From: Fretibacterium sp.
GTDB taxonomy: Bacteria; Synergistota; Synergistia; Synergistales; Aminobacteriaceae
Assembly (NCBI GenBank): GCA_024695065.1
Contig: JAILIX010000042.1
Span: forward strand, 1 to 64,000
Length of the DNA stretch: 64,000 nt
Direction: 5' to 3'
Shown here: one piece after another, positions 31,466 to 49,271 of the stretch
How the letters are laid out: each line of letters starts with the position of its first letter
How positions within the stretch are numbered: the first letter of the stretch is position 1
The notes under the pieces: generated by a model
Databases searched by the model: none
What the model saw: the letters and a program-made list of their open reading frames with translations, nothing else
What the model was told of the DNA's origin: nothing
Made by a program: the position numbers and the translations under genes

Positions 31466-32006
31466 AGAAAAAATGAAGGCACGGATATGCCGCGCTAAAA
31501 TTCCCGGACGCAAGGCCTGGGGAGCTGTGAGTGAGTCGCCTCATAAAAGCTGTGGTGATGATAAATTTTCTGTCTGATGCTTCCTTCAGCGTATCGGTTC
31601 CTCTCCCGCTTATTGACACGATGTGAAGCTTCCTGAGCCATTCATGCCGGCGCTGACAGATATCGGGAAAAAGGCTGTGTTCCCTGTGCCCTTCGGGTAT
31701 GAGGCTATGCGGACAGGGGAATCGGATTCTCGCTCTGATATAATTATGGAGGGAGGATATAATTAGAGAGAAGGAACTTCCGGCAAGCGGCAGGTACGAC
31801 CGCCTGGGAATATTGGACGGTGTGCTTTTGGGCGCCAGTGTGCCGGATAGGGTCATGTCCCCGCCGAACATCCTGAATAAGCGGATAATATTTCGTGGGT
31901 GAAAGTCGTGCTCCGGGGATGCGCTGAAAGTCATGGATACGGAGGATAATCCGGAGAAAAATGTTGCTGGTGCGGTGAGATACGCATGGAGGAGGGGAGA
32001 CCGCAG
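31466..32006 (+). promoter_or_regulatory. 540-base non-coding region upstream of the signalling cassette
   Basis: No convincing gene is seen on either strand. Two TATAAT hexamers at 31739-31744 and 31758-31763 (19 bases apart) are the best -10 candidates; they would leave a leader of about 250 bases before the phosphatase gene. GGAGGAGGGG at 31988-31997 is the ribosome site. The composition is more AT-rich than nearby genes around 31550-31770. Confidence 0.4.
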
Positions 32007-34124
32007 ATGGGGCGCAAACATTGGGAAAGACATCCTATCCGGAAGAAGGTCCGGGGGATGGTGCTGGTTATCTCCCTGATTTCCCTGGCTTTGGCCATTG
32101 CTGTGGGAGTCATCAGCATGATGCGTATTTACAACGACAGCGAGGCCGCCATGAGGCTGCAGATGGAACAGAATCTCCACACCATCGTGACAAGCCGGGC
32201 TGATCTGGCGGAGACGGAGCTGGAGAAGTACGCGATAGCTGTCCAAACCTTTGCGGATTATCTTCAGGAGCTTTATCGGGGCAATCCAGCCCCTGAGGTC
32301 CTGGAACTCATTCCTCCGCCCAGCATGGAAAACGCGAACCGCTACTCTATGCAGCGCCTTCTCAGCAGCCGGGACATCTCTCTGGATGATGTGAAGGACG
32401 ATTTGCTCCTTATGACTCATATGGAGCATTTGTGGTACCCCGTCATGATTCATGATACCCGCAGCATCCTTTCAATATACTATGGTATGAAGAGCGGGGT
32501 ATCGGTCATCTACGACCGATATTCTCAGATGGCGGTCCCTCAGGACGGCGAAACCGAGACCTACTACAATTTTTTAAAGTCTCCATGGTACCTCCGGGCG
32601 GAGAGAAGGAAGAAACTTTGCTTCACGGACGTTTACCGGGATGCCTTTGGCCGGGGGCTGATTGTCACCTGTGCTGCGCCGGTCTACGATGAGAAAAACG
32701 AATTTGCGGGTGTCGTCGGCATGGACATCCTGGTCTCTGTCCTGTACAGTTCCATTGTGGAGATGGACATGGAGGAGGGGGCCTATGCCTTCATGGTGGA
32801 CAAAGAGGGGAATCTTCTTGAGCCCACGAAAAACGGTGGAACAAGGGTTCGCAACCTGTATTACGACTATAACAAGGAGATTGGCTACAAGGTGGCCGGC
32901 CGGATTCTTGGCGGCAAGACAGGGGTCTCTCTGGCGGGGAATGGAGTCTATTACGGATACACCACGATCCCCAGCACGGGCTGGAAACTCTGCGTTCGCA
33001 TTCCGGAAGCGATAGTCCTGGCCCCGATGCAGTCCGTCAAACGCAATGTTGTTATGACGCTTTTCCTGTTCTTCGCGGCGTTTGTCTTTATCATTGCACT
33101 GGTTACACTGGAGAGCAAGAGATTTTCTGCCCGTCTGGCGTATCCCATTATTGCCCTGAAGAAGGACGTGGAGAAGATCACCGACGGGGACCTGAACTAC
33201 CGTGCCAGAGTCTATGACAATGATGAAATCGGGGATCTGGCGGATGAGTTCAATGCCATGGCCTCATCGCTGAAGAATTACATTCAGGACTTTGCCGCTG
33301 TCACGGCGGAGCGGGAGCGTATTAAGACGGAGCTGAACGTTGCCGCGCAGATTCAGGCGGATCTTTTGCCCTGCACATTTCCGCCGTTCCCGGATCGCCG
33401 TGAGTTTGATATTTATGCCACCATGACCCCGGCCAAAGAGGTGGGCGGGGACTTCTACGACTTCTTCTTTATTGATAAAGACCATCTGGCGCTGGTGATA
33501 GCCGATGTGTCGGGCAAGGGGATGCCGGCGGCGCTCTTCATGGTCATTGCAAGGACGCTCATTAAGAACCGCGCCCAGATGTGGGGAGGGAAAACTTCAG
33601 AGATACTGGAGGCTGTCAACAACCAGCTCTGCGAGGAGAGCGGGACGGAACTCTTCGTGACGGTCTGGCTTGGGGTTCTGGAGATATCGACAGGGAGAGT
33701 TGTTTCCTGCAACGCGGGTCACGAGTACCCTGCTGTCCGGCGTGCGGAGGAGGGGTCCTTTGAGCTGATCAGGCGGGCAGTCAATAATCCTGCGGTTGCG
33801 ACGATGGAGAGAATGAAATTCTACGAGAGCGAGTTTTTCCTGTCTCCGGGGGACAGCCTTTTCCTCTATACAGACGGAGTGGTGGAGGCAACGAATGCGG
33901 AGTATAAGCTCTATGGACGGGACCGCATGATTGATGCGCTGAACCGTCATGGTGCGGAGCCGGTGGAGGAGTTTATTGTATCCATGAAGCGTGAAATTGA
34001 CGGCTTTGTCGGTGATTCGTCACAGTTCGATGATATCACCATGCTGGCGTTGCAGTATTATGGAAGAAAGGAAAGGCCGGAAACGAGCGGACAGTTGACT
34101 GAGGAAAAGGGGGATCAGAGATGA
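32007..34124 (+). CDS. Membrane sensor PP2C phosphatase: dCache-HAMP-SpoIIE (RsbU-like), copy 1
   Basis: 705 residues: membrane helix 1 (about 17-40), an extracytoplasmic dCache-type sensor (about 45-340; FTDVYRDAFGRGLIVTCAAP, FAGVVGMDI), helix 2 (about 346-368), HAMP (about 372-425; VYDNDEIGDLADEFNAM), short coiled coil, then a PP2C domain with PAKEVGGDFYDFF, IADVSGKGMPAALFM, LYTDGVVEATN and QFDDITML, all metal-binding Asp intact. Such enzymes dephosphorylate a serine on STAS-domain antagonists. ATG 32007 is chosen over 31986 because GGAGGAGGGG precedes it. The stop overlaps the STAS gene (ATGA), pairing enzyme and likely substrate. Confidence 0.9.
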   Translation: MGRKHWERHPIRKKVRGMVLVISLISLALAIAVGVISMMRIYNDSEAAMRLQMEQNLHTIVTSRADLAETELEKYAIAVQTFADYLQELYRGNPAPEVLELIPPPSMENANRYSMQRLLSSRDISLDDVKDDLLLMTHMEHLWYPVMIHDTRSILSIYYGMKSGVSVIYDRYSQMAVPQDGETETYYNFLKSPWYLRAERRKKLCFTDVYRDAFGRGLIVTCAAPVYDEKNEFAGVVGMDILVSVLYSSIVEMDMEEGAYAFMVDKEGNLLEPTKNGGTRVRNLYYDYNKEIGYKVAGRILGGKTGVSLAGNGVYYGYTTIPSTGWKLCVRIPEAIVLAPMQSVKRNVVMTLFLFFAAFVFIIALVTLESKRFSARLAYPIIALKKDVEKITDGDLNYRARVYDNDEIGDLADEFNAMASSLKNYIQDFAAVTAERERIKTELNVAAQIQADLLPCTFPPFPDRREFDIYATMTPAKEVGGDFYDFFFIDKDHLALVIADVSGKGMPAALFMVIARTLIKNRAQMWGGKTSEILEAVNNQLCEESGTELFVTVWLGVLEISTGRVVSCNAGHEYPAVRRAEEGSFELIRRAVNNPAVATMERMKFYESEFFLSPGDSLFLYTDGVVEATNAEYKLYGRDRMIDALNRHGAEPVEEFIVSMKREIDGFVGDSSQFDDITMLALQYYGRKERPETSGQLTEEKGDQR

Positions 34125-35308
34125 AAAAATATGCGTTGAGCGTCTCGGTGGGGGACAGGGAGCTTTGTTTTATCATCGAGGGCAGAATCGACAGCACGAG
34201 CATCAGGGACTTTAACGACACCGTTGTGGCGGAACGCAGGAGATATCCTCATGGAAGGATTGTTTTTGACTGCAGCGAGCTGGAGTACATCTCCAGCGCA
34301 GGACTCCGGGTTCTGCTGACCCTGAAAAAAAAGGAACGAAACCCCATCCGTCTTATCAACGTCTCGCCGGAAGTTCATGAAACACTGGAAGTCACGGGCT
34401 TTTCCCGTCTCCTTGAAGTATTTAAAACCCCGCGGGACCTTTCTGAAGCGGACGTGCAGAAGATGGGCTACACCGGAAACATCACTGTTTACCGCATGGG
34501 GGAGGACACGCTGCTGAAAGTCTACTCTGATGGCACAAGCCTGGATGCCATCGAGCAGGAAAGAAAATATGCCCACGCCGCGTTCCTGAGTGGGGTCCCT
34601 ACACTCATTGCCTATGATGTCGTCACTTATAAGGGACAGTACGGAATGCTCTACGAGCTGGTGAAGGCTGCCACGGTTGCTTCGCTGATTGAGGCGACCC
34701 CGTGGAAGATGGAGCAGTACGCGGTGGATATGGGCAATCTCCTGAGGACCATTCACAAGGCCCAGCCAGAGCCCGGTATATTGCCGAAAACATCGGCCAT
34801 CTACGAGGGATGGGCACGGAGAATGAGCACCTGGCTTTACCCCCAGGAGATTGATAAGTTATGCCGTCTGATTCATGTTATTCCGGAAATGGATACCATG
34901 GTTTACGGGAACTTCCATCCCCGCAACGTCTTTATTCAGCATGGCGAACCTCTGCTCATCAACATGGCGGGCATCAGCTGCGGTAACCCCATCTTCGATC
35001 TGGGGGCCATTTATATGGCCCATGCCTCTGAGATGGAGCAGATGTTTCAGCACCCGGATATCAAGACCGTTCAGGCTAAAAAATTCTGGGATGTCATGAT
35101 CCGTGCTTATTTCGGGACGACAGATGCCAGCGTTATCAAGAAACAGGAGGACATCATTCAGGCTGTGGCTCTGTTGCGTTCTGCGCTTTCCCCTGCGGCA
35201 ACACCCATGTCCGGCGAGGAAGCGAAGCCGTTTATCGTCCAGGCCCGGCGAGACCTTCTCCCTGCGGTGGATTATCTGGCCGTCCTTTTGAGTAGCGCCA
35301 GATTTTGA
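34121..35308 (+). CDS. STAS domain fused to a kinase-like (APH-fold) domain lacking catalytic Asp residues, copy 1
   Basis: 395 residues. Residues 1-108 are a STAS anti-sigma-antagonist domain with the phosphoacceptor region ELEYISSAGLRVLL. Residues about 115-335 resemble the APH-fold family seen in Fibrobacter and Clostridia (TIGR02172-like): the ATP-site Lys in TLLKVY, EQERKYAHAAFLSGVP and YGMLYELV are kept. The catalytic loop, HGDFHPxN in active members, is YGNFHPRN (about 260), and the metal-binding IDM is INM (about 280). I infer a pseudokinase scaffold. Coupled by overlap to the PP2C phosphatase gene, whose likely substrate is its STAS serine. Confidence 0.78.
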   Translation: MKKYALSVSVGDRELCFIIEGRIDSTSIRDFNDTVVAERRRYPHGRIVFDCSELEYISSAGLRVLLTLKKKERNPIRLINVSPEVHETLEVTGFSRLLEVFKTPRDLSEADVQKMGYTGNITVYRMGEDTLLKVYSDGTSLDAIEQERKYAHAAFLSGVPTLIAYDVVTYKGQYGMLYELVKAATVASLIEATPWKMEQYAVDMGNLLRTIHKAQPEPGILPKTSAIYEGWARRMSTWLYPQEIDKLCRLIHVIPEMDTMVYGNFHPRNVFIQHGEPLLINMAGISCGNPIFDLGAIYMAHASEMEQMFQHPDIKTVQAKKFWDVMIRAYFGTTDASVIKKQEDIIQAVALLRSALSPAATPMSGEEAKPFIVQARRDLLPAVDYLAVLLSSARF

Positions 35309-35329: not shown

Positions 35330-37909
35330 ATGAAAAAAAGACGTCCAATCCGAAGAAAAGTCCAGCAGATGATGCTGTTCATCGCCCTGGCCTCTCTGGG
35401 CCTGACCAGTGTCGGGGCGCTTATCAGTATGGTGCTCATCCAGCGGGAAACCGGAGCGGCCCTGACTCGTCAGGTGGAACAGAATCTTAGAGACATTGTA
35501 GTCCACAAGGCCAACCTTGTGGATTCGGAGCTTGGCAAGTTCGCCGCGTGCGTCCGCACACTGGCCAATTTTCTTCATGACCTTTACACGGATCCCGGTG
35601 CCATCGAAAAAAGAAATATCCTGCCTCCTCACATTGAGAATGCAAACATCTACGCCATGCAGCGCAGTCTGGCCGGCCCGAATATCTCGCTGGAGGATAT
35701 CAGGGAGCAGATGTTTCTGCTGGGCAACACGGAGGTGATGTGGAGGCCCGTCATGACCGAGAACGAGGGCGTCGTCACCACAATCTACCTTGGCACGGAG
35801 ACCGGGCTGTTGCTCTCCTATGATTCCCAGTCCCAGATAGCCCTCCCTGACAGAGGGGACACAGAAACCTACTACGATTACCGCAAGTCCACCTGGTACC
35901 AGAAGGCGAAGGAGACGCAATCCATTTGCTTTACCGAAGTCTACCGGGATGTCTTCGGCCGGGGGCTGACGATCACCTGCGCGGCGCCGTTCTACGATGC
36001 GGAAGGGACCTTTGCAGGTGTTGTTGCTATGGATATCCTGATTTCAGACTTGTATAACGCTGTTTTGCAGCTGGACATAGAAGGTGGGGCCTATGCTTTC
36101 CTTGCAGACCGGCAGGGGAACCTTATCGGCCCATCGGGCATCAGCGACACGAGGACCATCCGCAATCTGTACTACAATGAGACCCAGGACATTGGCGACA
36201 TTGCCGGTCGGATTCTCCTGGGCAAGACGGGAGTATCCCTGTCGCCAAAGGGAACCTATTACGCCTATACTCTGATTGATATTACGAAATGGAAGTACTG
36301 CATCTGCATTCCAGAGGCGCAAATTCTTGCTCCTGTGCGCTCTGTAAGGCGCAACATCATTATCATGATGCTTTTGTTCCTTGCGGCAGGAATATGGATT
36401 ATAGCGCTGATTGCCAGGGGGAGCAGCACACTCTCCGAGCGTCTGACGGGTCCCATCGCTGCGCTGAGGCAGGATGTGGAGAAGATCAGTGAAGGCAACC
36501 TGAGTTACCGGGCTGAGGTCTATGATAACGATGAGATTGGCGACCTGGCGGAGGGGTTCAATATCATGGCGGACTCCCTCAGGGATTATGTGAAAAACCT
36601 CTCCGAAGTGACCGCTGAGAGAGAGCGTCTCGGGGCTGAGCTGGACATCGCGACGCGGATCCAGGCAGATTTGCTGCCGCGTCTTTTCCCGCCGTTTCCG
36701 GAGCGCCGGGAGTTTGATATTTTTGCCACTATGACCCCGGCTAAGGAGGTGGGCGGGGACTTCTATGATTTCTTCTTCATCGATGATGACAAGCTGGCTC
36801 TGGTGATAGCTGACGTGTCGGGCAAGGGGGTCCCGGCGGCGCTTTTTATGGCCATTGCCAAGACGCTTATTAAAACACGCTCTCAGATGGGAGGGACCCC
36901 ATCTGAGATATTGAACGACGTCAATAACCAGCTTTGCAGGGAAAACAGCTCTGAACTTTTTGTGACGGTCTGGCTGGGAATTCTGGATCTGCCCACGGGG
37001 AAGATAATTTCCACCAACGCAGGGCACGAGTATCCGGTCCTTAAGCGTGAGGGGGGAGGCTACCGGCTGATGAAACTGGGGAGTCACCCCGCTGTCGCGA
37101 CGATGGGTGGGCTGAGTTTCCGTGACGATAAGTTTTCCCTCCGGCCGGGGGACTGCCTTTTCCTCTACACGGACGGTGTGACGGATGCAGTCTGTCCCTC
37201 ATCGGAGAATACGTCGGCTTCGGATTCAGACAAGGAACTGGACGATCTCTTTGGAATTAACCGCATGATCAAGGCTCTGAACCGACATGGTGAAGAACCT
37301 GTGGAAAAGCTTCTTGCGTCCATGAAGGAAGAGATCGATGATTTCGTCGGAAACGCGCCGCAGTTCGATGATATCACCATGCTGGCGTTACAATATTATG
37401 GCGAGGGAGGGAAACCGTTGGACGAGGATTCGCAGAAGGAAAAAATAATTGAAGAATCTGTAGGGAGGGGAGGAAGATTAACCGTCGAAGCAAGGACGGA
37501 AATGCTTGATGAGGCTCTCGCCTTTATAGACAAATATCTGGAGGCTTATGGATGCTCACCGAGGTCTCAGATGCATATTGACATGGCGGCGGAGGAAATT
37601 TTCGTCAATATTGCCAGTTATGCCTATACGCCCAGGATTGGGACGGCACAGATCAGCCTGGAGATTGAGACAGAGGATACGCCAGGCGGGCAGGTGGACA
37701 CGGCTGTGATTACCTTTACGGATGGCGGCTTTGCTTACAATCCTCTTGATAAGCCGGACCCCGACGTAACTCTTCCTGCTGGTGAACGGCCCATTGGTGG
37801 CCTTGGTATTTACATAGTAAAGAAGACCATGGATACCGTCACCTATGAATATAAAGATGGCAAAAATATTTTGAGGATGCGGAAGCGCCTTGACGAGAAA
37901 GGAGAATAA
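35330..37909 (+). CDS. Membrane sensor PP2C phosphatase with fused RsbW-like ATPase domain, copy 2
   Basis: 859 residues with the same layout as copy 1: helix about 15-38, dCache sensor to about 335, helix about 340-362, HAMP about 366-420, PP2C about 455-690 (PAKEVGGDFYDFF, IADVSGKGVPAALFM, LYTDGVTDAV, QFDDITML). It continues with a HATPase_c domain (about 716-855): N box AAEEIFVNIASYAY, FTDGGFAYNPL and IGGLGIYIVKK, as in RsbW/SpoIIAB anti-sigma kinases. One chain may therefore carry both the phosphatase and the opposing STAS kinase. Sensors of the two copies are clearly paralogous. Ribosome site is weak. Confidence 0.9.
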   Translation: MKKRRPIRRKVQQMMLFIALASLGLTSVGALISMVLIQRETGAALTRQVEQNLRDIVVHKANLVDSELGKFAACVRTLANFLHDLYTDPGAIEKRNILPPHIENANIYAMQRSLAGPNISLEDIREQMFLLGNTEVMWRPVMTENEGVVTTIYLGTETGLLLSYDSQSQIALPDRGDTETYYDYRKSTWYQKAKETQSICFTEVYRDVFGRGLTITCAAPFYDAEGTFAGVVAMDILISDLYNAVLQLDIEGGAYAFLADRQGNLIGPSGISDTRTIRNLYYNETQDIGDIAGRILLGKTGVSLSPKGTYYAYTLIDITKWKYCICIPEAQILAPVRSVRRNIIIMMLLFLAAGIWIIALIARGSSTLSERLTGPIAALRQDVEKISEGNLSYRAEVYDNDEIGDLAEGFNIMADSLRDYVKNLSEVTAERERLGAELDIATRIQADLLPRLFPPFPERREFDIFATMTPAKEVGGDFYDFFFIDDDKLALVIADVSGKGVPAALFMAIAKTLIKTRSQMGGTPSEILNDVNNQLCRENSSELFVTVWLGILDLPTGKIISTNAGHEYPVLKREGGGYRLMKLGSHPAVATMGGLSFRDDKFSLRPGDCLFLYTDGVTDAVCPSSENTSASDSDKELDDLFGINRMIKALNRHGEEPVEKLLASMKEEIDDFVGNAPQFDDITMLALQYYGEGGKPLDEDSQKEKIIEESVGRGGRLTVEARTEMLDEALAFIDKYLEAYGCSPRSQMHIDMAAEEIFVNIASYAYTPRIGTAQISLEIETEDTPGGQVDTAVITFTDGGFAYNPLDKPDPDVTLPAGERPIGGLGIYIVKKTMDTVTYEYKDGKNILRMRKRLDEKGE

Positions 37910-37916
37910 CTGGGAG

Positions 37917-39110
37917 ATGGGGAAAAGGTACACTCTGAGAGCAGCTGTGAATGACAATCAGCTTGTGTTTACGGTCGAGGGCCGGGTTGACTCCGTGACC
38001 GTCAAGGAGTTTGAGGATATGGTGACCAGGGAGCGCACGGCGCATCCCGAGGGTGGAATTGTCTTTGACTGTGCGGATCTGGAGTATATTTCCAGCGCCG
38101 GGCTTCGTATCCTCCTCAGCCTGAGGAAAAAGGAGAAGGAGCCGATTCAGCTTATTAATGTTTCGCCGAAGGTCAATGAGATTTTGGAGGTGACGGGATT
38201 CTCCCAGCTTTTTGAGGTATCACGCGGTATGAAGGATATCTCCGGGCGTGATGTGCGAAAGCTGGGAGGTACCAGCAGCCTTACCATTTATCGCATGGAT
38301 AATGACACGCTCCTGAAGGTCTACTCCAGCGAGAAGAGTCTTGAAGCCATTGAGCAGGAGCGAAAATACGCACAAATTGCGTTTATGAGCGGGATTCCCA
38401 CCATTATCGCCTATGATGTGGTGATGTACAAAGGGAAATATGGGATGCTTTATGAATTGGTCCAGGTGGATACCGTCTCCTCGATTATGAGCTCAAGTCC
38501 TGAGGAGTTGGGGCAGTTTGCAGTGGAGATGGGGAAACTGCTGAAGGTGGTTCATTCCTCCGAGCCGGATCCCGGTGTACTGCCGGAGACCCAGACTCTG
38601 TATGAAGGCTGGGCACAGAAAATGGAGCGCTGGCTGCAGCCCGAGGAAAAGGAGGCATTGAATCGCCTGATTCAGGCAATTCCGCCGGCGGATACAGTAG
38701 TGTACGGGAATTTCTATGGACGGAGTGTTTTTGTCCAGGGCGCGGAACTGCTGCTGATCAATATGGCAGGCATCAGCTGTGGAAATCCTGTCTTTGATTT
38801 GGGGACAGTTTATATGTACTACGTCAATGAACCCCAGCAGGTTGTGAAGAACATGACCGGCCTCGATCCCGATGAAGCGAAAAAGTTCTGGGATGTCATG
38901 GTGCGCACGTATTTTGATACGAATGATGACAATGTAATCCAGAAGCATGAGGAGGTTATCCGTGCGGCCGCCCTGCTCCGTGCCACAGTGACTCCCGCGA
39001 TGGGGTCCATGCAGGCTGAGGAAATTGAGCGCCTTGTTGGACAGGCCAGGAGCAAAGTCTTCCCGGAAATTGACCAGCTGGCTGCCCTGCTGAGCACGGC
39101 CCATTTCTAA
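37917..39110 (+). CDS. STAS-kinase-like fusion lacking catalytic Asp residues, copy 2
   Basis: 397 residues, colinear with copy 1. STAS domain with DLEYISSAGLRILLSL, then the APH-like part with TIYRMDNDTLLKVYSS, EQERKYAQIAFMSGIP and YGMLYELV. The catalytic loop is YGNFYGRSVF, so both the Asp (now Asn) and the downstream Asn (now Ser) of the HGDxxxxN loop are replaced, and the metal site reads LLINMAGISCGNPVFDLG. Loss in both paralogues argues for conserved pseudokinase use rather than random decay. ATG 37917 lies 8 bases after the phosphatase stop, with AAGGAG in the end of that gene. Confidence 0.78.
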   Translation: MGKRYTLRAAVNDNQLVFTVEGRVDSVTVKEFEDMVTRERTAHPEGGIVFDCADLEYISSAGLRILLSLRKKEKEPIQLINVSPKVNEILEVTGFSQLFEVSRGMKDISGRDVRKLGGTSSLTIYRMDNDTLLKVYSSEKSLEAIEQERKYAQIAFMSGIPTIIAYDVVMYKGKYGMLYELVQVDTVSSIMSSSPEELGQFAVEMGKLLKVVHSSEPDPGVLPETQTLYEGWAQKMERWLQPEEKEALNRLIQAIPPADTVVYGNFYGRSVFVQGAELLLINMAGISCGNPVFDLGTVYMYYVNEPQQVVKNMTGLDPDEAKKFWDVMVRTYFDTNDDNVIQKHEEVIRAAALLRATVTPAMGSMQAEEIERLVGQARSKVFPEIDQLAALLSTAHF

Positions 39111-46129: not shown

Positions 46130-47211
46130 CTACCCCTGATGGGCTATCCTGTCGATAATTTCCTTCTTCAGGGAGACAGCGTCGATTTTTCCGTTGGCAA
46201 GAGCCGGCAGCCTGTCGTAAACAAAGAAATACGTCGGGATTTTATACTTCGCCAGTTTTGACATAAGGAAATCACGCATTTCATTCTCATCAAAGGACGC
46301 CCCGGTCTTCAGCACTACCGCAGCTGACACGGCCTCGCCGTAGGTCTCGTCCGGCACGCCGATGACCTTTGCGTCAACGACGTTTTCATGTGCGGAGATT
46401 GCAGAAGCCACTTCATTGGGCATGATGTTTTCGCCGCCGCGTATAATCAGCTCCTTGGCCCTGCCCGTAAAATGCAGATAGCCGTCCTCGTCCAGAAATC
46501 CCAGGTCGCCTGTGTGCAGAAATCCCTCTTTGTCAAAGGGCTGTTTCTCCACTGGCAGTTTGTAATAGCTGCACATCATGTTACGCCCCTGCACGATAAT
46601 TTCCCCCTGAACGCCCGTGGGGCAGAACTGGCCCTTCTCCATGTCCTTTATCCTCACGTCCGTGCCGTCGAGGGGTTTCCCTACGGTCTTAAGAGTGTGA
46701 TCGATGTCGTCGTCAAAGTCCGTCGCGCTTACGGGCGTCATCTCGCTGAGGCCATAACGCCGCAAAAAGTGATTGTTGGGGAATTTTCCCATCAACATTT
46801 GCAGCTGCGATTCCGAAACCGGTGCTCCGCTGAGATACGAAGCTCTGAGGCTCGACACCAGCTCTGTCGAAAAGCCGGGCGCGTTGACCAGTCTCAGCAG
46901 CACAGTGGGTACCGAATGAAGGATGGTACACTTCTCACTGCTGATGACGCTCATCAGCTCATCGGGCTTCACGCTGCGAGGCAAAACCAGAGACGCTCCG
47001 CTGATGATGCTGGCCAGCAGCGCAGCCGTCAGACCAAAAATATGGAACAGCGGCAGAATGGTGCACATCTTGTCGTCCTCAGTCATGTGAATATTTTCCA
47101 CGCAGTAATTCGAGGAGTTGAATAAATTGAAGGCCGACAGCAACACTCCCTTGGGTGTCCCCGTGGAGCCGGAGGTGAAGATCATTACGCAGACGTCGTC
47201 TGACATTATAA
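46130..47211 (-). pseudogene. 3' part of a STAS-acyl-CoA synthetase gene split by IS3
   Basis: About 360 residues of an AMP-forming acyl-CoA synthetase: phosphate loop MIFTSGSTGTPKGV, RRYGLSEMTPVS, HTGDLGFLDEDGYLHFTGR, KELIIRGGENIMPNEV, and the C-terminal catalytic Lys region ALANGKIDAVSLKK. All adenylation motifs are present, so the gene was probably functional before insertion. The break is only about 10 residues before the phosphate loop. The first 8 or so residues of the remaining open frame come from the IS end. The 5' part is at 48472-49271. Confidence 0.88.
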
Positions 47212-47293
47212 TGGTCCCCATAAAACGGACCACCCGGAGTGATAAAGTCGCAGGGAAAAGGTGGAGGAGGTGAGAGAATAGAGAAGGGGTGGT

Positions 47294-47566
47294 TTGATGG
47301 GCTTCAAGGGGAATCGCTACAGCGCGGACACGAAGGCCGAGATTGCGTTAAGGGCCTGCCGTGAGGATATGACGATCTCGGAATTATCGTCTGAGTATGG
47401 TGTTTCCGGGACTCAAATCAACCGCTGGAAAAAGACGCTGATAGAGAGGGCATCTGAGTTGTTCGACACCAGCAAACCGGTGGACATCGAGAAGATCACC
47501 GATCCGCTGTATAAGGAAATTGGACGTCTGAAGATGGACATCGAGTGGCTTAAAAAAAAACGATGA
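47294..47566 (+). CDS. IS3-family transposase OrfA
   Basis: 90 residues with a helix-turn-helix (AEIALRACREDMTISELSSEYGVSGTQINRWKK) and a leucine-zipper-like end DIEWLKKKR, as in IS3 OrfA proteins that bind the element ends. It terminates just after a run of nine A (47552-47560), the place where IS3 elements make OrfAB by ribosomal slippage. Here OrfB lies in the +1 frame rather than the usual -1, so either slippage differs or the A run has gained or lost a base. Confidence 0.88.
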   Translation: MMGFKGNRYSADTKAEIALRACREDMTISELSSEYGVSGTQINRWKKTLIERASELFDTSKPVDIEKITDPLYKEIGRLKMDIEWLKKKR

Positions 47567-47570
47567 GGAG

Positions 47571-48419
47571 TTGAGCGTATGTCAAAAACGCGGGCTCATA
47601 GACCCATCTGACCTGGGAATGAGCCTGCGGCGTCAATGTGAACTTCTTGGTTTGAGCCGGTCTGGGTACTATGCCTTGTTGAGGCCCAGGCTGGAGAGCG
47701 AAGAGAATGAAAAGCTGATGAGGCTGATAGACCGGCAATATCTTGTTACGCCCTTTTATGGAAGCCGGAGGATGATGATCTGGCTCCAGCGGCAGGGATA
47801 CAATATCAACCGCAAGCGGGTTATGAGACTGATGCGGAAGATGAGGCTGGCGGGAGTGGCGCCCAGCCCCAATACGAGCAAGCCGCACCCGGAACACAAG
47901 GTTTATCCCTATCTGCTGCGGGATATGAAGATAACGAGGGTCAATCAGGTGTGGAGTACGGACATTACGTACATTCCGATGAAGCGGGGTTTTATGTATT
48001 TGACAGCGGTCATAGACTGGCACAGCCGCTATGTTCTGTCCTGGGAGCTGTCGAACACGCTGGAAAGTACATTTTGCGTCCGGGCATTGGAACGGGCGTT
48101 GAGGCATGGCAAGCCTGAGATATTCAATACGGATCAGGGGAGTCAGTTTACGAGCAATGAGTTTACGGGCGTATTGGAGACGAACTCGATACGGATCAGC
48201 ATGGACGGTCGAGGAAGGGCGTTGGACAATATTTTCGTTGAGCGTTTATGGAGAAGCCTGAAATACGAGTGCGTTTACCTGAACGACTATGAAAATGTAC
48301 CCGACCTGTTGCAGGGATTAAGGTGGTGGCTTTCGTTTTATAATAAGGAGCGTCCTCATACATCTTTGCCGGGGAATCTTACTCCTCGAGAAATGTATGA
48401 ATCGTGCCTTAACCTTTGA
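47571..48419 (+). CDS. IS3-family transposase OrfB (DDE integrase)
   Basis: 282 residues. N-terminal SLRRQCELLGLSRSGYYA and YGSRRMMIWLQRQG are typical of OrfB; the rve catalytic core has WSTDITYIP (first Asp), FNTDQGSQFTS (second Asp) and DNIFVERLWRSLKYE (Glu), so the DDE triad is complete. A TTG at 47571 with a nearby GAGGAG could start it, but production as an OrfAB fusion is usual. The C-terminus ends RPHTSLPGNLTPREMYE, full length. Confidence 0.92.
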   Translation: MSVCQKRGLIDPSDLGMSLRRQCELLGLSRSGYYALLRPRLESEENEKLMRLIDRQYLVTPFYGSRRMMIWLQRQGYNINRKRVMRLMRKMRLAGVAPSPNTSKPHPEHKVYPYLLRDMKITRVNQVWSTDITYIPMKRGFMYLTAVIDWHSRYVLSWELSNTLESTFCVRALERALRHGKPEIFNTDQGSQFTSNEFTGVLETNSIRISMDGRGRALDNIFVERLWRSLKYECVYLNDYENVPDLLQGLRWWLSFYNKERPHTSLPGNLTPREMYESCLNL

Positions 48420-48471
48420 GCTTTGACTTTATCTCTCTTTCGCGTTTTTTTGGTCCTTGACTTGGGGACCA

Positions 48472-49271
48472 CTATACATGACGCGGACGTTGGGATATCC
48501 CTTCAGTGGCTTTTCAAGGAAATTCACGTCATCTCCGATGTCAAGAACCGCCTTTATCTGTGAATCTTCCAGGTTGATTATCTGTGCGGAAAACTGTTCC
48601 CTGTCCTTTGCCGGCGTGTTCCCAAAGCAGAGATGCGTGATGTCCCCCAGACGAGAAATTCTCGTAATTTCCTCCGGCGTGAGCTGCGGGTTGAGCAGCA
48701 CGGCCACCGCGCCCAGCTTCTGGACAGCGAAGAATGTCAGTATCCAGTTTACTGAGTTCGCACCAAAGAGGGCTACGTGCGAGCCCTGTCTCACTCCATG
48801 AGAGTGCAGATCCGAGGCGACAGCCGAGGCTCCTCTGTCTATATCCCGCCAGGTATACTCAACACCGCGGGACTTCACAAGGACTCTGTCGCCGTATTTC
48901 CGGACCTTGTACTCGAGGATGTCTTTGAAGGACATATTCCTGATGTCAAAGGCGGCGTCCTTTGTCCTGTACTGAAAGATATCTGCGAACCCGGTTACCT
49001 TCAGCACATCTTCCACTTCAGGCTGTATGTTGTCCAGCAAAAGCCCGTTTTCCCCCAGTTTCTTGGCTGTAATCAGAAGCTCGCGAAGCCCGCTGGATGA
49101 GATGTAGCTCACGTCGGAGAAATCAAGAATAAGCCGTCCTGTCCCCTGTATCTCGCTTTCCACGTTTGCCAGAGCGCGCCGTAGTTCAGGCGAAGTCAGA
49201 GTGTCAATCCTTCCGCTGAGGAAGAGCGTATGCGGATTGTCGTGCGCAGTTGTCACAGTTAAACCTTCCAT
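48472..49271 (-). pseudogene. 5' part of the STAS-acyl-CoA synthetase gene split by IS3
   Basis: About 266 residues. Residues 1-105 are a STAS domain (LFLSGRIDTLTSPELRRAL; acceptor site DVSYISSSGLRELL), then the N-terminal half of an AMP-binding domain (KDILEYKVRKYGDRVLV, YTWRDIDRGASAVASDL, VALFGANSVNWILTFFAVQ, AVAVLLNPQLTPEEI). Fusion of an anti-sigma-antagonist domain to an acyl-CoA synthetase is unusual. ATG 49271 has AAGGAGG 10 bases upstream. The remaining frame runs a few codons into the IS and stops at 48429. Confidence 0.85.

Follow-up and report, generated by a model that had tools for sequence, protein, structure and literature searches.

The window, a stretch of 64,000 nucleotides from Fretibacterium sp. 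(contig JAILIX010000042.1), contains an operon of four genes in the order dCache-HAMP-SpoIIE (31986), STAS-APH (34121), dCache-HAMP-SpoIIE-HATPase_c_2 (35330) and STAS-APH (37917). The first gene (31986..34124, +) encodes a membrane sensor of 712 aa with a PP2C-type phosphatase, in which the Pfam domains dCache_1 (3.7e-20), HAMP and SpoIIE (3.8e-42) were identified. The second gene (34121..35308, +), whose product of 395 aa starts with ATG and is called copy 1 here, overlaps the stop codon of the upstream phosphatase gene by 4 bases (ATGA). The third gene (35330..37909, +) encodes a protein of 859 aa, which is described by its Pfam domains as a membrane phosphatase with a C-terminal RsbW-like kinase. 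The fourth gene (37917..39110, +), called copy 2, encodes 397 aa from the ATG at 37917, or 406 aa from a TTG at 37890.

The STAS domain of copy 1 (residues 12-105; 34154..34435, +) scored 48.9 bits against the Pfam STAS model (cut-off 22.6; 6e-13). The APH-fold domain occupies residues 124-300 according to PF01636, whose cut-off of 23.2 bits was passed by both window copies, with 31.4 bits for copy 1 and 36.6 bits for copy 2. These scores confirm the STAS-APH fusion that was proposed in an initial annotation of the sequence. For TIGR00377 (cut-off 53.45), the scores were 52.9 for copy 1 and 58.5 for copy 2. The scores for TIGR02172 were 79.0 and 90.9 bits for the window copies against a cut-off of 228.2, which was likewise not reached by the canonical fusions, that is, the relatives with intact kinase motifs (107-116 bits). 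The AlphaFold model of copy 1 has a pLDDT of 91.5 and shows the expected loop-strand-strand-loop arrangement around residues 262-281. A kinase fold is indicated by the Foldseek match to APH(2'')-IIa with an E value of 3.7e-10, and the further matches include Cph001 (PDB 8i8g).

The initial annotation had also claimed that both catalytic Asp residues of the APH-like domain are replaced by Asn and that the ATP-site Lys is kept, and both statements hold. In an active APH kinase, an HxDxxxxN loop provides the general-base Asp, and a second Asp in an IDW or IDM motif binds Mg. The catalytic loop of copy 1 reads YGNFHPRN (residues 262-269; 34904..34927, +), where H262 is changed to Y, D264 is changed to N and N269 is kept, and the Mg-ligand position is occupied by Asn281 in LLINM (34961..34963, +). 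The AAC codons for N264 (34910-34912) and N281 (34961-34963) were read directly from the DNA of the window. Lys133 (34517..34519, +), Glu147 and Asn269 are retained. Two further changes were absent from the initial annotation, namely the replacement of the catalytic-loop His by Tyr (Y262) and the loss of the Gly-rich loop. As shown by the alignment, the nucleotide-positioning loop of copy 1 is degenerate (residues 116-126, the GYTGNITVYRM region; 34466..34498, +) and reads MGYTGNITVYR, compared with GxGxxGxVYR in the relatives. Copy 2 carries YGNFYGRS and LLINM, and therefore additionally lacks the Mg-ligand Asn at position 269. In the STAS domain, Ser59 of copy 1 (34295..34297, +) corresponds in the alignment to the Ser within the DSSG motif of SpoIIAA, the phosphorylation site of that protein.

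Fusions were collected from 83 genomes of the family and by scanning about 85,000 species genomes, and the distribution of these changes was then determined by alignment and tabulation of the motifs. Nearly all of the sequences come from metagenome-assembled genomes. The species-genome scan gave at least 561 matches, of which the top-scoring 80 were used, so that the canonical set covers the highest-scoring matches. The comparison set outside the clade of the window consists of 118 fusions from Synergistaceae, Clostridia, Erysipelotrichaceae, Coriobacteria and Treponema, of which 117 are legible and 1 is a truncated ORF. H262, D264 and D281 are present in 117/117 legible canonical fusions (118 rows, from the highest-scoring of at least 561 matches). 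The columns 262-293 align with these relatives at the same positions, and the tabulation called for by the initial annotation gave no Asp from another register; a register shift was thus rejected.

The clade of the window shows a different distribution. Among its 27 sequences, position 264 is occupied by N in 22, by S in 3, by C in 1 and by D in 1, position 281 is N in 23 and D in 3, with 1 gap, and position 262 is Y in 23/27. Since Asn occurs in 22/27 and 23/27 members of one monophyletic clade, its presence at positions 264 and 281 exceeds chance. G118 is found in 99% of the relatives and in about 1 in 28 of the clade, and G121 falls from 89% in the relatives to near zero. Other parts of the active site are kept, including Lys133 (26/27), Glu147 (26/27), Glu179 (27/27), His212 (27/27) and Asn269 (23/27). 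In the STAS domain, Ser58 and Ser59 are conserved, and position 59 is S in 24/25 legible members. The loss is not uniform: L048 (YGDYHAGN, ILIDM) retains both Asp together with the same Tyr and the lost Gly loop, and L050 and L057 retain the second Asp. The Asp residues in these three sequences may be either retained steps or reversals.

In a tree that was built with the motif columns left out and with no root direction inferred, all altered sequences fall into one Synergistaceae clade of 26 tree rows with a bootstrap/SH-aLRT support of 100/100 (SH-aLRT of 100 in another tree). L057 forms a long branch, and its placement is unsure. By parsimony, the tree requires at least 2 changes at position 264 and at least 4 at position 281. 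The pairwise Nei-Gojobori dN/dS of the APH part in the genus of the window is 0.08-0.16, which is an approximate range because several synonymous distances are near saturation. The STAS part lies in the same range as the APH part of the genus, and so do canonical pairs (0.06-0.14). Two pairs of clade members from the sister genus are looser, with dN/dS of 0.29 and 0.33. Purifying selection acts on the dead domain, and the loss of its catalytic residues is conserved across the orthologues of the 26-row clade, as is expected of a pseudokinase.

The genome of the window contains five STAS-APH fusions, all of the dead type. A second copy of the operon on contig C100 carries two fusions, which are 84% and 77% identical to their window counterparts, and the fifth fusion is solitary on C34. 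All fusions in the four genomes of the genus are of the altered type. Searches of the window genome (assembly about 91% complete) with a canonical fusion and with PF01636 revealed no APH-family domain apart from these five fusions, and hence none that looks live. The nearest named match, among the matches listed, was Fretibacterium sp. RGIG4950 from the roe deer rumen, with 79% identity. These data bear on the reading that the domain is a decaying relic of a kinase that is not needed anymore and is drifting. Such drift would agree with the truncated L056 and with one sister copy (G065:C231; L040:5279-6466), where an in-frame TAG separates STAS from APH, which reflects either a split or an assembly error. 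However, decay is rejected because of the low dN/dS of the APH part and the five intact copies in one genome, and the invariant clade-specific residues point in the same direction; we regard the relic reading as very improbable.

It is also conceivable that the domain is still an enzyme, which performs weak phosphotransfer supported by Asn or another reaction such as nucleotidyl transfer. Unexpected activities exist in some pseudokinases, the active site is partly retained, and L048 has both Asp despite its Tyr and lost Gly loop. The general base, the metal-binding Asp, the catalytic-loop His and the Gly loop have, however, all been lost. As a separate candidate, relocated catalysis was rejected because no newly conserved acidic residue was found near the active site in the aligned family, where the sole acidic gains of the clade are D106 and E343. 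In the related kinase Cph001, the equivalent D-to-N mutant, D189N, is fully inactive, yet a crystal structure of it with ATP and substrate exists (PMC10730852; PDB 8i8g). The inactivity of this mutant counts against a remaining enzymatic role, which appears distinctly unlikely, and its crystal structure shows that an APH-fold domain of this kind can bind without transfer.

The same structure, together with the near-invariant ATP-site Lys and its Glu partner, favors a nucleotide-sensing pseudokinase, in which the binding of ATP or GTP would report the energy state to the STAS switch. This reading was part of the initial annotation, which had proposed a dead or nucleotide-sensing kinase tied to an anti-sigma-antagonist domain as an output or scaffold module. 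The dead, STAS-tied and conserved character of the domain stands, whereas nucleotide sensing is weakened by the loss of the Gly-rich loop across the clade. The Mg-ligand D281 is also gone, and copy 2 is left without N269 as well. Nucleotide sensing is thus an unlikely explanation.

If the active site were empty, with no small-molecule ligand, the domain could be a purely structural scaffold that serves as a platform for dimerisation or docking. The joint loss of the Gly loop, the His and both Asp is consistent with such a role, as are the newly conserved residues specific to the clade, most of which have hydrophobic or small side chains (A201, M204, G205, P358 and F271). On the other hand, Lys133, Glu147, Glu179, His212 and, in most members, Asn269 are conserved beyond the needs of a spacer, and the frame of the active site is kept. 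A purely structural scaffold therefore seems a minor, though real, possibility. More generally, the domain is best interpreted as an output, a scaffold or a sensor, because its phosphotransfer residues are gone, it is tied to STAS and it is conserved as a dead domain.

The neighboring genes of the operon differ from the APH domain in the state of their motifs. The metal-site motifs of the PP2C domains (VGGDFYDFF, ADVSGKG and FDDITML) and the boxes of the HATPase are intact in the operons of the clade; the boxes in 35330-37909 are EEIFVN (N-box), TDGG (G1) and GGLGIYIVK (G2). A PP2C phosphatase and a HATPase kinase with intact active-site motifs are hence encoded in the same operon, as in partner switching. 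With these motifs intact and Ser59 conserved, the switch enzymes look live, and the APH domain alone looks dead. In SpoIIAA/RsbV and SiaABC, the HATPase phosphorylates the STAS protein, the PP2C phosphatase dephosphorylates it, and the partners change with phosphorylation (PMC7647112).

Our preferred reading, which we consider rather probable, is that copy 1 is a STAS-fused APH-fold pseudokinase in a partner-switching module, where a binding-only APH domain, as output or co-sensor, would be gated through phosphorylation at Ser59. The dCache-HAMP-PP2C membrane sensor phosphatase would remove the phosphate from Ser59 of the STAS domain, and the RsbW-like kinase, which is fused to the second phosphatase, would add it. 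The STAS domain or its partner would then gate the attached APH-fold domain, which may bind a ligand or a protein partner without phosphate transfer and thereby act as the output of the switch or as a co-sensor. The inactivity of the APH domain and the partner switching are well supported. We infer the phosphorylation cycle, the binding role of the pseudokinase and the lack of activity in the real protein; the lineage-wide catalytic loss, the strong selection and the intact phosphatase and kinase partners suggest that the dead domain is probably a binder and not an enzyme. The Asp residues kept in L048, L050 and L057 count against this reading, as do the 10/26 clade members that have neither SpoIIE nor HATPase within 5 kb, in part because contigs end there, and no gene of the window operon is an obvious effector.

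The genomic context was compared between the clade and the canonical fusions, using domain models built from the window's own proteins, and all of the counts are lowered by contig ends. SpoIIE lies within 5 kb in 16/26 clade members compared with 1/33 canonical Synergistaceae fusions, and a partner is adjacent on the same strand in 15/26 compared with 0/33. Outside Synergistaceae, SpoIIE or HATPase is encoded near or fused to 41/81 canonical fusions, and 22/81 are single STAS-APH-HATPase proteins (both counts within the highest-scoring of at least 561 matches). Because of these 41/81 fusions, the partner-operon context was rejected as a general cause of the loss, and it is valid only inside Synergistaceae. 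L137:7785-9542 and 21 other loci combine STAS, APH and HATPase in one chain with intact kinase motifs, that is, an antagonist, an APH kinase and an RsbW-like kinase. In L046:7873-11708 (G064:C10), three altered STAS-APH genes lie in tandem, and SpoIIE and HATPase are absent from the 18 kb examined.

Several operons of the sister genus (g11) also encode, after the STAS-pseudokinase, family-3 solute-binding proteins (SBP_bac_3), an ABC permease and an ABC ATPase whose C-terminal part is an RsbW-like domain. This C-terminal domain folds like SpoIIAB (TM 0.80) and lacks the N-box Asn and the G1-box Asp. The ABC ATPase of the window genome itself is located on another contig, C17. ABC ATPases of this type were observed at L184:14691-15806 (G000:C17) and L050:12675-13790 and in L045, L048, L053 and L054, and relatives of the C-terminal domain occur in 45/83 genomes of the family. 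A more speculative and rather doubtful extension is that a live ancestral STAS-APH kinase became a binding-only partner-switching output that controls transport, where the dephosphorylated STAS-pseudokinase would dock on the pseudo-RsbW domain and gate the transporter. If so, two pseudoenzymes would meet, namely the STAS-pseudokinase and the pseudo-RsbW domain of the ABC ATPase.

STAS, partner switching, APH folds and pseudokinases are already known, and the fusion can be compared with each of them. The canonical STAS-APH fusions resemble the window proteins in the STAS-then-APH order, the length of about 395 aa, the conserved SSAG motif of the STAS domain and the frequent SpoIIE/HATPase neighbors or fused HATPase; they keep the Gly loop and the HxD...N and ID motifs, whereas the clade of the window has lost the Gly loop, the His and both Asp. 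SpoIIAA/RsbV (PF01740, TIGR00377) share the STAS fold with a phosphorylatable Ser and an RsbW-like kinase and a PP2C phosphatase encoded nearby. Classical SpoIIAA/RsbV are single-domain proteins, whereas the window protein carries an APH-fold domain, and no sigma factor gene was seen adjoining the operon. SiaABCD of Pseudomonas aeruginosa (PMC7647112, PMC8457831) is similar in its sensor PP2C, kinase, STAS-like target and non-sigma output. However, the scores for NF038263 (SiaA) were 70.5 and 78.7 against a cut-off of 700, SiaC is a single-domain protein, and neither a diguanylate cyclase nor any other cyclase was noticed in the list of reading frames surrounding the operon. The APH/choline kinase superfamily (PF01636; TIGR02172) shares the fold, with the structural matches given above, and HMM membership, whereas the window domain lacks the catalytic residues and scores 79 against 228.2 for TIGR02172. 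A conserved kinase fold without catalytic residues is also found in bacterial Ser/Thr pseudokinases (PMC12599244), whereas the fold in the window is that of an APH-type small-molecule kinase tied to STAS. The cited review, which dates from 2025 and covers bacterial pseudokinases, mentions neither "STAS" nor "SpoIIE".

The initial annotation had called the module undescribed. In the open-access literature, no paper was found on STAS-APH fusions or on pseudokinases joined to partner switching, which agrees with that description; however, the architecture itself is widespread in gut and rumen bacteria and mostly catalytically intact. The usual scheme of partner switching shows a STAS protein without further domains, and its output is a sigma factor or a cyclase. 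In the present case, STAS bears a domain with the fold of a small-molecule kinase, whose catalytic residues are kept family-wide and lost in one lineage, where the domain is retained. Since genomes of the sister genus carry apparently live STAS-APH paralogues side by side with dead ones, and L048 has both Asp, the change from an enzyme to a signalling part could be studied stepwise with natural proteins. The fusions further suggest that STAS or RsbW domains are combined with enzymes and transporters more broadly in gut anaerobes, in a group of proteins that seems not to have been described.

Several other arrangements were observed near STAS-APH genes and in the window. MATE-family transporters with a C-terminal HATPase_c_2 domain lie near STAS-APH genes at L130:10697-12418, L173:9680-11458 and L132:2556-4301 (genomes of Blautia, Oscillospiraceae and Erysipelotrichaceae), and a GH3-family protein with a C-terminal STAS domain lies near a STAS-APH gene at L173:11487-13529. 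In the window, a gene for a STAS domain and an AMP-binding enzyme seems to be split at 46130-49271 (-), with the STAS/N-part at 48429-49271 and the C-part at 46130-47233. Between the two parts are two ORFs on the + strand (47294-47566 and 47571-48419), which appear by eye to be an IS3-type transposase pair.
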